Origin: an uncultured Clostridia bacterium | Lineage (GTDB): Bacteria > Bacillota > Clostridia > TANB77 > CAG-508 | DNA: 64,000 nucleotides | Direction of reading: 5' to 3' | Assembly (NCBI GenBank): GCA_944390285.1 | Contig: CALXPN010000006.1 | Span: 1 to 64,000, forward strand | Part shown: positions 34,909 to 38,126 of the stretch, one piece after another | Layout: every line of letters starts with the position of its first letter | How positions within the stretch are numbered: the stretch's first letter is position 1 | Position numbers and translations under genes: made by a program | Notes under the pieces: generated by a model | Told to the model about the DNA's origin: nothing | What the model saw: the letters and a program-made list of their open reading frames with translations, nothing else | Database searches by the model: none

Positions 34909-36063
34909 TTACATAGCTTCTCTATATAATCTTATAAAATCTTCTTTTGTTACTTCTCTAGGATTTCCTGGTTTACATGGGTCTTCCATTGCTTTTTCTG
35001 CAAGCATTTCTAAATCCTCTTCTTTACATCCTGTATCTTTAACAGTTTGAGTAACTCCAACTGCTTTTGATAATTCTGTTATTTTCCATACAAATGTATT
35101 TATAACATCTTGATCATTTAAATCTCTTGCATCAGGTCTTCCAATATGACATAAAATTTCTCTAAATTTATCTGCACAAACTTCCCCATTAAATCTCATA
35201 ACTGTTGGAAGTAAAATTGCATTTGCAATTCCATGTGGTGTATCATATACTGCACCTAACTGATGTGCCATTGAGTGAACTATTCCTAGTCCAACATTTG
35301 AAAATCCCATACCAGCCATATATTGAGCAATTGACATATTTTCTATAGCTTTTGGATCTTTTTCGTTTACAGCTTTTGGTAAATTTTCAAATATTAATTC
35401 TATTGCTCTCATATGGAACATATCTGACATTGTATTATGAGCTTTTGTAATATATCCTTCAACAGCATGTGTTAAAGCATCAAGTCCAGTTGCTGCTGCT
35501 GTTCCTTTTGGCAAAGATTCCATTAATTCTGAATCTACTATTGCTAAAATTGGTATGTCATGTGGATCAACACAAACCATTTTTACTTTTCTTTCTTCGT
35601 CTGTTATAACATAATTTATTGTAACTTCTGCTGCAGTTCCATGTGTTGTTGGAAGAGCAATCATTGGCATTCCTTTATTTGCAGTATTTGATGCTCCATT
35701 TAAAGATACAACATCTGCTCTATCTGGATTTGTCATTATTATTGAAATTCCTTTTGCTGTGTCCATTGCAGAACCACCACCAACTGCAACTATAACATCT
35801 GCTCCTGATTCTTTACATTTTGCTACACCATCTTGAACATTTTTTACTGTTGGATTAGGTTTTACTTCTGAAAAAATATCATAAGCAATACCTGCTTCAT
35901 CTAAAATCTGTGTAACTTTTCCAGTAACACCACATTCATATAGTGCTTTATCTGTAACTACTAGTACCTTATTAAAACCTCTAGTTTTAATTTCATTTGA
36001 TAGTTCTGTTCTGCACCCCCTACCAAAATATGCTGTTTCATTTAAAACAAATCTTTCTGACAT
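34909..36063 (-). CDS. fucO: Iron-dependent group III alcohol dehydrogenase, FucO (lactaldehyde reductase) type
   Basis: This enzyme interconverts aldehydes or hydroxyaldehydes and alcohols with NAD(H). It aligns along its whole length with FucO: FVLNETAYFGRGC, VGGGSAMDTAKGI for the cofactor, LPTTHGTAAEVTINYVITDEE, VCVDPHDIPILAIVD, and metal ligands in GLDALTHAVEGYI, HSMAHQLGAVYDTPHGIANA. The real substrate could be lactaldehyde, 1,2-propanediol or a short-chain alcohol. Length is 384 residues. No fucose or rhamnose genes are nearby, so the pathway is not shown by context. AAAGGAGG precedes the ATG. Confidence 0.92.
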   Translation of the reverse strand: MSERFVLNETAYFGRGCRTELSNEIKTRGFNKVLVVTDKALYECGVTGKVTQILDEAGIAYDIFSEVKPNPTVKNVQDGVAKCKESGADVIVAVGGGSAMDTAKGISIIMTNPDRADVVSLNGASNTANKGMPMIALPTTHGTAAEVTINYVITDEERKVKMVCVDPHDIPILAIVDSELMESLPKGTAAATGLDALTHAVEGYITKAHNTMSDMFHMRAIELIFENLPKAVNEKDPKAIENMSIAQYMAGMGFSNVGLGIVHSMAHQLGAVYDTPHGIANAILLPTVMRFNGEVCADKFREILCHIGRPDARDLNDQDVINTFVWKITELSKAVGVTQTVKDTGCKEEDLEMLAEKAMEDPCKPGNPREVTKEDFIRLYREAM

Positions 36064-36185
36064 TTTAATTTCCTCCTTTGAATATTAAATAAAATAAAAT
36101 TTTATTCTTAAATTATTATTACCAAAAATAGTATATCAATAAATAAAATTTCTTACAAGTTTATTTTTGTTTTTCTTATCTATAC

Positions 36186-36214
36186 TTGACTATATAAAAT
36201 CATTTTTGTATAAT
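36186..36214 (+). promoter_or_regulatory. Near-consensus SigA promoter of the SCIFF gene
   Basis: TTGACT (36186-36191), a 17-base spacer and a perfect TATAAT (36209-36214) predict a start near 36221. Confidence 0.75.
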
Positions 36215-36221
36215 AAAAAAC

Positions 36222-36244
36222 AGATTACACCTAGTTTGTAATCT
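36222..36244 (+). other. 5'-terminal hairpin in the SCIFF mRNA
   Basis: AGATTACA (36222-36229) and TGTAATCT (36237-36244) form a perfect eight-base stem with a seven-base loop. This places it at the predicted 5' end, where it could protect the mRNA. A second six-base stem, CTTTGT/ACAAAG (36258-36263 with 36272-36277), touches the ribosome binding site. Confidence 0.55.
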
Positions 36245-36288
36245 TAGAGCAACACAACTTTGTTTAATTACACAAAGGAGGTGAAAAC

Positions 36289-36432
36289 ATGAAACACATT
36301 ACAACACTTAACACAAAACCCATGCAGGCGAACATAAAACATGGAGGATGTGGAGAGTGCCAGACATCTTGTCAATCCGCTTGCAAGACTTCTTGCACAG
36401 TCGGAAATCAGCAATGTGAAAATAAAAAGTAA
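36289..36432 (+). CDS. scfA: SCIFF peptide precursor (six cysteines in forty-five residues)
   Basis: This 47-residue RiPP precursor is the nearly universal SCIFF peptide of Clostridia. It starts MKHITTLNTKPMQANIKHGG and carries Cys at 21, 24, 28, 32, 36 and 43, in the CGECQTSCQSACKTSC core followed by TVGNQ.CEN. In studied species a radical SAM maturase (ScfB) makes a thioether bridge, and its gene usually lies next door. Here no such gene is in the window: the convergent neighbour is unrelated. AAAGGAGGTG gives a perfect ribosome binding site. The gene is visibly richer in G and C than its surroundings and stands against the direction of its flanking genes. Confidence 0.95.
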   Translation: MKHITTLNTKPMQANIKHGGCGECQTSCQSACKTSCTVGNQQCENKK

Positions 36433-36477
36433 GGCCACGTTGACCATACTCACATTGCAACAATTGTGTTTCAAAGG

Positions 36478-36511
36478 AAAAGGTCGGATTCACACCCGAC
36501 CTTTTCTTTTT
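36478..36511 (+). terminator. Terminator of the SCIFF gene
   Basis: AAAAGGTCGG (36478-36487) pairs perfectly with CCGACCTTTT (36496-36505) around an eight-base loop, with T's continuing. It can also end the convergent gene. Confidence 0.9.
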
Positions 36512-36523
36512 AAAAAACATTAT

Positions 36524-37495
36524 CTATCTTAGATGAGATGATGCATCAAACTGTTTTTTATTTGCAATCACAGTTTTTAAAAAAGTACCTTTATTTTGCT
36601 GAGAAAAAGAATATCTTTCTTCTTTTTCCCCATATAAACTTCCTCCTCTTATCTCTGTTATTGTTTGTGAACTTTTATCATATTCAAATTTAAACAATAC
36701 CCTTAAATCATTTGGATCCACAGGTTTTGCTATAACTTCATATCTATTTGTTGCATTATTCTTTTGCATATATATGCCATACCTTTTTAACATTTCTGTA
36801 AATATTTGATTAAAATTGCTGTAAAAATCTGGATCAAATTTCTTACTAGATAAATTTTCATTTGTCTTTATTCCATATATATATTCCATAATTTTTTTTG
36901 TTGATGCTAATGCTCCTTCAAACATCTTTCCATAACTACTTTTACTGCCCAAACTATTTTCGAGTAATGGTTCTGGTTCCAAAAAAACATATGGAATTTG
37001 AGTTTCATTAAACCATACTTTACTTTTTTGCATATCTTTAAATAAGCTCGGATATTCATTTTTTATATTACTTAATAAATTTATTTTTTGATAAATATCT
37101 TCTTGATCTTTTAAATAGACTACTACTCTATCTAATCTATCACTTTCCCTTGCATATTTAAAATAAATATCACTTCCTGCTTTCAAAGAATTATTAATGA
37201 ATTGAACTGCAAGTTCATGTAAATTATGGTGTTTTGGTGATAAATATAAACGAGCCTTTATTCCGTCTTCAGAAAATCTTCTATTTACAGCAATATGAAA
37301 AAAACTATTTTCATTTCCATCTTGATTCTGTATATGTATATTAGCTCCCTTAGCCTTGGCTTCTTTTATAGATTGTATTAATTTTTTATCTTTACTCTTA
37401 AAATTTACATCTTCATCCAGAGTAGCAATATAAAAATCTGAATAATTTATATTACTATTATTTAGCATTAAATTTATTATTTCATCATATTTCAT
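36524..37495 (-). CDS. Hypothetical protein with possible HopA1/phosphothreonine-lyase-like domain
   Basis: No function is certain for this 323-residue protein. Residues 60-200 carry SFFHIAVNRR (His67), IKARLYLSP (R82, Y84), DIYFKYARESDRLDRVVVYL (Lys113, Arg120, Arg123), QIPYVFLEPEPL and SKSSYGKMFE. This order (His, R.Y, YFK, R.D/V.VY, a Pro-rich loop, S.G) is what I recall from the HopA1/phosphothreonine-lyase-like group, which includes the lyase partners of class V lanthipeptide synthetases. The assignment is from memory and weak. It starts 30 bases after tRNA-Gln and is convergent with the SCIFF gene. No signal peptide is seen. Confidence 0.7.
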   Translation of the reverse strand: MKYDEIINLMLNNSNINYSDFYIATLDEDVNFKSKDKKLIQSIKEAKAKGANIHIQNQDGNENSFFHIAVNRRFSEDGIKARLYLSPKHHNLHELAVQFINNSLKAGSDIYFKYARESDRLDRVVVYLKDQEDIYQKINLLSNIKNEYPSLFKDMQKSKVWFNETQIPYVFLEPEPLLENSLGSKSSYGKMFEGALASTKKIMEYIYGIKTNENLSSKKFDPDFYSNFNQIFTEMLKRYGIYMQKNNATNRYEVIAKPVDPNDLRVLFKFEYDKSSQTITEIRGGSLYGEKEERYSFSQQNKGTFLKTVIANKKQFDASSHLR

Positions 37496-37769: not shown

Positions 37770-38126
37770 ATGAATAGAACATTAAAATTTTTATTAATAA
37801 TATGTATAATGTTATTTTCTATAGGTTTTAGCAATAATATATATGCAACAGAAACAGAAGAAACGCAAAATCAATCAAGTAGTGAAGATTTTTCTAATAC
37901 TTCTTCTAATGAAAATAACACTAGTTCAGAAAATACTATAATTAATGATACTCCAGATGATTCATTATCAACACTTTCTCCATCTTCTGTGACAAGTGTT
38001 TCAACTGTTAATAGTTATGAACAGGCAAACTTAGATTTAAATAATATTTTATGTATTATTTTAATTGCTATTGGTGTTTTACTTATATTATTTGCAATCG
38101 CTATTTTGATAAGATTAAAAAAATAA
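37770..38126 (+). CDS. Small secreted protein with C-terminal membrane anchor
   Basis: I do not recognise this 118-residue protein. A signal peptide ends near ATETEE (about residue 27). A Ser/Thr/Asn/Glu-rich low-complexity section follows. A hydrophobic helix (about 92-114) and a terminal RLKK close it, so it should be a surface-exposed, membrane-tethered stalk. No LPXTG-like motif precedes the helix. AGGAGG precedes the ATG. It is convergent with the similar-sized gene at 38216-38659. Confidence 0.75.
   Translation: MNRTLKFLLIICIMLFSIGFSNNIYATETEETQNQSSSEDFSNTSSNENNTSSENTIINDTPDDSLSTLSPSSVTSVSTVNSYEQANLDLNNILCIILIAIGVLLILFAIAILIRLKK

Follow-up and report, generated by a model that had tools for sequence, protein, structure and literature searches.

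What does a SCIFF peptide do in a genome that seems to lack ScfB, the radical SAM enzyme that matures it? The question arises from a 64,000-nucleotide stretch of an uncultured Clostridia bacterium (called the window here, always at its full length), in which the SCIFF gene scfA stands without scfB. An earlier note on this DNA had described a clear six-cysteine SCIFF with its own near-consensus promoter, leader hairpin, ribosome binding site and terminator, and had offered two explanations, a displaced scfB or maturation by something other than ScfB. The product of the gene matches the SCIFF precursor model TIGR03973 with 84.4 bits against a cut-off of 50. It has 47 residues and, in keeping with the family pattern of six cysteines in about 45 residues, carries Cys at positions 21, 24, 28, 32, 36 and 43; Thr34 and Thr37 are both present. 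The gene lies in a compact transcription unit at positions 36186-36511, with a promoter, a leader hairpin, a Shine-Dalgarno sequence, SCIFF and a terminator hairpin. The features of the unit and its surroundings are as follows.

34909-36063, minus strand: iron alcohol dehydrogenase, coding neighbour
36186..36214, plus strand: promoter, -35 TTGACT, 17 nt, -10 TATAAT, 11/12 consensus matches
36222..36244, plus strand: leader hairpin P1, 8 pairs (fold prediction)
36249..36253, plus strand: GCAAC, an instance of the GYAAC box present in half of orphan leaders (see below)
36253..36283, plus strand: P2, predicted partial pairing across the Shine-Dalgarno region (fold prediction)
36276..36281, plus strand: Shine-Dalgarno AGGAGG (sequence)
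36289..36432, plus strand: SCIFF (scfA) precursor peptide, 47 aa, ATG at 36289, stop codon ending at 36432
36473..36510, plus strand: terminator hairpin of 15 pairs with a loop of 8, in the gap that separates SCIFF from the convergent minus-strand gene
36524-37495, minus strand: gene without assigned function, coding neighbour
from 37770, plus strand: ORF of 118 aa

The description of the unit given in the earlier note is confirmed. The promoter departs from the consensus at a single position, although the number of promoter-like sites in a 701-base region, 4, is to be read against the 2.9 expected from shuffles. Folding supported both hairpins, the terminator (z -6.3; 0 of 200 shuffles fold equally well) and P1 (z -2.0; 8 of 200). 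A terminator pattern scan listed none on the plus strand at 36473-36510, probably because the stem takes in the T run. The statement that the gene stands alone on the plus strand is correct for its two coding neighbours, both on the minus strand, but given the ORF at 37770 SCIFF may not be the sole plus-strand gene nearby. A scan of the contigs of genomes with a neighbour protein as the query found no relative.

We searched for ScfB in the genome that contains the window (G000; a draft of 1,664,390 bases in 26 contigs, 98.03% complete). As the earlier note had reported, the window has no scfB: no TIGR03974 match adjoins SCIFF or lies elsewhere in it. The proposal that the gene has moved fared less well, because the best TIGR03974 score in G000 was 18.7 bits against a cut-off of 425, with one long masked stretch unreadable to the search. 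Relocation is unsupported, since the same search does find distant ScfB in other genomes, about 61 kb from SCIFF in G261 and, in the genome of locus L239, on a different contig. The searches of G000, of 96 relatives and of the host order, with working positive controls, speak against it. Real relocations do exist: SCIFF and ScfB lie far apart or on different contigs in G122, G201, G214, G238, G261 and G282, four of which belong to one family (f60).

The SPASM model PF13186 had no match in G000 either. Twelve matches to Radical_SAM were found, 11 of them above the cut-off, and seven of the 12 are housekeeping proteins over NCBIfam cut-offs (MiaB, MtaB, HemW, PflA, YtqA, RlmN and NrdG). RimO, whose stretch is interrupted by masking, and another NrdG, which matches Fer4_12 (Pfam), were named from sequence only. 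L129 (Elp3/YtqA-like), L132 (activase-like) and L133 stay below every NCBIfam cut-off. L133 (G000:C1:255659-256699) is a small protein of the radical SAM type that has neither SPASM nor an assigned family; among 80 genomes searched, it has one relative of 72% identity, in G048. As a stand-in maturase L133 was rejected, as at E ≤1e-15 it occurs in one of the 59 genomes with SCIFF and without ScfB defined below, G000 itself, and in one of 21 other genomes.

SCIFF without ScfB is a recurrent pattern in the host order and not a one-genome oddity. A set of 96 relatives, G000 included, yielded SCIFF in nine and ScfB over the cut-off in none; within the host genus, SCIFF occurs in 3 of 53 genomes. 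In an even sample of the order, 385 genomes with at most four ScfB candidates scored in each, SCIFF was recovered in 71 and was absent from 314. ScfB exceeded the cut-off in 13, all SCIFF-positive and all of genus g20, and the next best match scored 194 bits. The other 58 of the 71 SCIFF-positive genomes, called orphans here, span 13 genera and three families; 47 of them reach a completeness of 90% or more, and missing sequence by itself would account for about four. A 59th orphan, G017 (72% complete), comes from the sample of 96 relatives, outside the order draw.

Outside the host order, ScfB is present in 203 of 204 SCIFF-positive genomes, as judged from an even sample of the class, 245 genomes with at most six ScfB candidates scored in each. 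SCIFF was found in 207 genomes of this sample, ScfB at E ≤1e-40 in 205 (202 above the cut-off) and both in 203. Two genomes have ScfB alone, and SCIFF alone was seen in G000, G067 and G071, all of the host order, and in G321 (69% complete). A ScfB-like match of at least 150 bits lies in the same stretch of DNA as SCIFF at 78 of the best 80 of 592 named SCIFF loci. Of the two exceptions, L277 comes from a genome with none, which is probably G532, one of the 58 orphans, and not an additional case. The other, L239, lies on a short contig that carries the label Selenomonadaceae, and the genome it belongs to has ScfB elsewhere (580 bits).

Across the 59 orphans, some PF13186 match occurs in 22 and none in 37, G000 included. 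The model matched 4 of 4 ScfB-positive control genomes, but it is not strong, as ScfB itself scores just 27 to 31 bits where listed. It misses some cases: G091, a PF13186-negative orphan, has a radical SAM protein that matches TIGR03974 with 125 bits. Neither a TIGR03974 match (E ≤1e-30) nor a PF13186 match was obtained in 36 of the 59.

We then compared orphan SCIFF with SCIFF from ScfB-positive genomes. All six Cys residues are kept in 59 of 59 orphans. The mean pairwise identity of the 23-residue core is 0.925 in 57 orphans versus 0.916 in 78 class ScfB-positive sequences. Pairwise codon differences in the same core amount to 20226 synonymous versus 2966 non-synonymous in the 59 orphans and to 36032 versus 6071 in 80 class ScfB-positive genomes, which were picked out of 203, mostly as top-scoring and not at random. 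Thr34 is kept in all 59 orphans and Thr37 in 54. Drift at Thr37 was rejected as a mark of lost maturation, since ScfB-positive sequences also have Gly there, 16 of 80 in the class and 13 of 13 in the order. At the third core residue, 7 of 59 orphans have Lys in place of Glu (CGKC), a change seen in none of the 80 class or 13 order ScfB-positive sequences. A leader-peptide start resembling K-H/R-I/V-x-T-L/I is found in 48 of 57 orphans, but the leader peptide is more variable in orphans (identity 0.449) than in ScfB-positive genomes (0.515). Leu at position -9 is present in 75 of 80 ScfB-positive sequences versus 41 of 59 orphans (p 1.8e-4, kinship ignored), a difference that may hint at relaxed recognition.

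Several orphan loci are syntenic; apart from greA, the neighbouring genes are named from a reading of their translated sequences. G000 and G019 have a common SCIFF locus, flanked by greA and an unassigned 306-aa gene at one end and by spoIIIA-type genes at the other, and G609 and G411 share a locus with a gapA-like gene downstream. SCIFF adjoins a trmFO-like gene, upstream of it, in 17 orphans, which include members of genera g20 and g175. Within 6.5 kb of SCIFF, 15 orphans have a SWIM/SNF2 helicase-like gene, upstream in those listed except G543. The syntenic loci disfavour contamination and recent arrival. With its core conserved, its synonymous codons varying widely and several of its loci syntenic, orphan SCIFF appears to be a maintained gene. 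In five g22 genomes (G419, G453, G512, G563 and G595), a common unassigned gene (up to 292 aa) lies on the same strand, 0.5-1.1 kb upstream of SCIFF.

The RNA leader of orphan SCIFF genes has a feature of its own. A GYAAC box lies within 80 nt before the start codon in 29 of 58 orphans (G471 was dropped because its start was not found), spread over eight genera and two families. In ScfB-positive genomes it occurs in 2 of 79 class leaders (one of 80 dropped) and 0 of 11 order leaders (two of 13 dropped), and in controls before 27 of 427 ORFs of at least 100 aa, taken from 48 loci of which 42 are orphan loci; the enrichment in orphan leaders has a p of 1e-15, kinship ignored. A stem of at least six Watson-Crick pairs ending within 6 nt of GYAAC is found in 16 of 58 orphans versus 4 of 427 controls, and in 16 of the 29 GYAAC segments versus 11% of those in single-base shuffles. 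The sequences of these stems vary between genomes; the variety of P1 pairs was counted on 16 stems selected for pairing and is not an independent covariation test, a role that falls to the single-base shuffles.

A covariance model, R1, was built from seven leaders. In 672 kb it recovered the leaders of G543, G609, G017, G000 and G095 at 19-30 bits (E 0.01-1.9); these five are outside the seed but had been picked by eye earlier. Matches of like score that do not precede SCIFF were also returned (G017, 30.9 bits; L063, 25.1 bits; and weaker ones), and in 80 class loci R1 reached at most 14.8 bits. The 30.9-bit match, L047:3310-3363 on the minus strand, is a second GTAAC-bearing leader in G017, without P1, before a SCIFF-adjacent gene. 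R1 is a weak model: on the window alone the SCIFF leader is the best of 29 matches, with an E of 0.048. Genome-wide in G000 the leader scores 22 bits and one match is better, at 30.4 bits; the sequence of the latter suggests the antisense strand of a T-box upstream of a valS-like gene. A G000-wide regulon sharing the leader element was unsupported in what was a weak test, with 150 of 2085 first-look candidates scored. Rfam 15 gave 14 matches at E ≤5 in window positions 35900-36600, none over its gathering score and none covering the leader on the leader's strand, and no match at E ≤0.5 at the leader of nine relatives' loci. The predicted openness of the Shine-Dalgarno site in G000 (0.42 vs 0.51 in shuffles) is not unusual. 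It is 0.25 vs 0.43 (p 6e-4) in 15 leaders picked by eye, 0.40 vs 0.49 (p 0.03) in the unselected 29 GYAAC orphans and 0.42 vs 0.50 (p 0.09) in the 29 orphans without GYAAC. These predictions are suggestive only of a pairing that would sequester the site in orphan leaders.

The window SCIFF resembles the known ScfA peptides (TIGR03973; CteA and Tte1186a) in its leader, six cysteines, core CGECQTSCQSACKTSC and Thr34 and Thr37. Thioether links are reported at the positions of Cys32, Thr34 and Thr37 in CteA and Tte1186a (PMC8326336). Unlike those peptides, it has no scfB adjoining or found elsewhere, it has its own promoter and terminator, and it shares its GYAAC leader box with half of orphan SCIFF genes. 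Relative to the SCIFF-ScfB ranthipeptide system (TIGR03973 plus TIGR03974), the precursor is shared and the defining maturase was not found in G000. The 2017 paper PMC5300114 describes 234 radical SAM genes that lie no more than 500 bp from a SCIFF gene and that all score well over the ScfB cut-offs, and it expects each ScfA to have an accompanying ScfB; that survey would miss orphans because its search begins from SCIFF/radical SAM pairs. Among the titles and abstract openings listed by a literature search, none reports SCIFF without ScfB.

These data bear on several accounts of the orphans. An scfB present in the species but hidden in an unassembled or masked part of the genome is conceivable for G000, a 26-contig draft with a masked stretch closed to the search. 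The same concealment would be needed in 58 genomes where incompleteness predicts about four, and the search that failed here found ScfB in nearly every SCIFF-positive genome outside the order; we consider this account decidedly improbable. SCIFF might instead be the decaying leftover of a lost SCIFF-ScfB pair, as its absence from 314 of 385 order genomes could indicate a gene being lost. This, too, we find improbable, as the core is as conserved as in ScfB-positive genomes while synonymous codons vary widely, promoter, Shine-Dalgarno sequence and terminator are intact, and genera g20 and g175 still hold syntenic copies.

The other half of the earlier proposal, a different maturase, survives as a rival. 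Another host enzyme, neither ScfB nor a recognisable SPASM protein, could mature SCIFF, and the invariance of Thr34 and the mostly conserved leader peptide speak for it, together with L129, L132 and L133, which lack an NCBIfam assignment, and the unassigned gene that precedes SCIFF in the five g22 genomes. We regard it as doubtful: seven of the 12 Radical_SAM matches of G000 are housekeeping types and none matches PF13186, L133, the one of the three compared across genomes, is confined among orphans to G000, and the genes common to at least four orphan loci look, the g22 gene apart, like housekeeping genes or like antisense ORFs. It is very improbable that the ScfB of other cells in the community matures the peptide, or that SCIFF is an unprocessed competitor of their SCIFF signal. 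Quorum sensing is given as the function of SCIFF in a table of the review PMC8326336, with Chen et al. 2020 among its sources, but no exporter, importer or receptor gene is prominent among the genes common to orphan loci.

A reading outside the original alternative fits better, namely that SCIFF works without ScfB in this order, through free cysteines; we put its probability at about 0.5. Orphan SCIFF likely has a job without ScfB, and it probably does that job in an uncross-linked form. ScfB would have been lost in the host order and SCIFF retained, to be transcribed alone from its own promoter under a leader RNA that may tune translation or message stability. The six free cysteines (CX2CX3CX3CX3CX6C) would then do the work, for example by metal binding or thiol chemistry. 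Some observations count against use without ScfB. The retention of Thr34 in all orphans and of Thr37 in most is one, because a peptide freed from modification might let its acceptor residues drift. The mostly kept leader peptide, the SPASM matches in 22 of 59 orphans and the 125-bit match of G091 are others, as is the scattered occurrence of SCIFF in the order, down to 3 of 53 genomes in the genus, which is as expected of an often dispensable gene. A broader version is tentative: order-wide, SCIFF could run without a maturase, as a cysteine peptide controlled by a so far undescribed leader RNA (the hairpin, the GYAAC box and the pairing over the Shine-Dalgarno site), with ScfB cross-linking an optional addition to an older thiol function.

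SCIFF occurs in 207 of 245 class genomes. Its role is still little understood, and the peptide and ScfB are regarded as an inseparable pair. The 59 natural genomes with peptide and without enzyme separate SCIFF's own role from the contribution of the cross-link, so that the question becomes testable by comparing SCIFF from an orphan species with SCIFF from one that has ScfB. Annotation rules that infer SCIFF from ScfB, or the reverse, would need an exception for the host order.

The ScfB-positive SCIFF of genus g20 belongs to the same peptide family, and its hosts to the same family (f1), as the window SCIFF. It differs in having a GVANQ-type core (13 of 13), an adjacent scfB and no GYAAC leader (0 of 11). 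An Orn/Lys/Arg-decarboxylase-like gene follows in 13 of 13 of these loci and spoIIIA-type genes precede in three, all named by reading; L087, L095 and L097 are g20 SCIFF-ScfB pairs located between genes of these two types. In G000 and G019, too, the orphan SCIFF is found past the 3′ end of spoIIIA-type genes, but in the opposite orientation.
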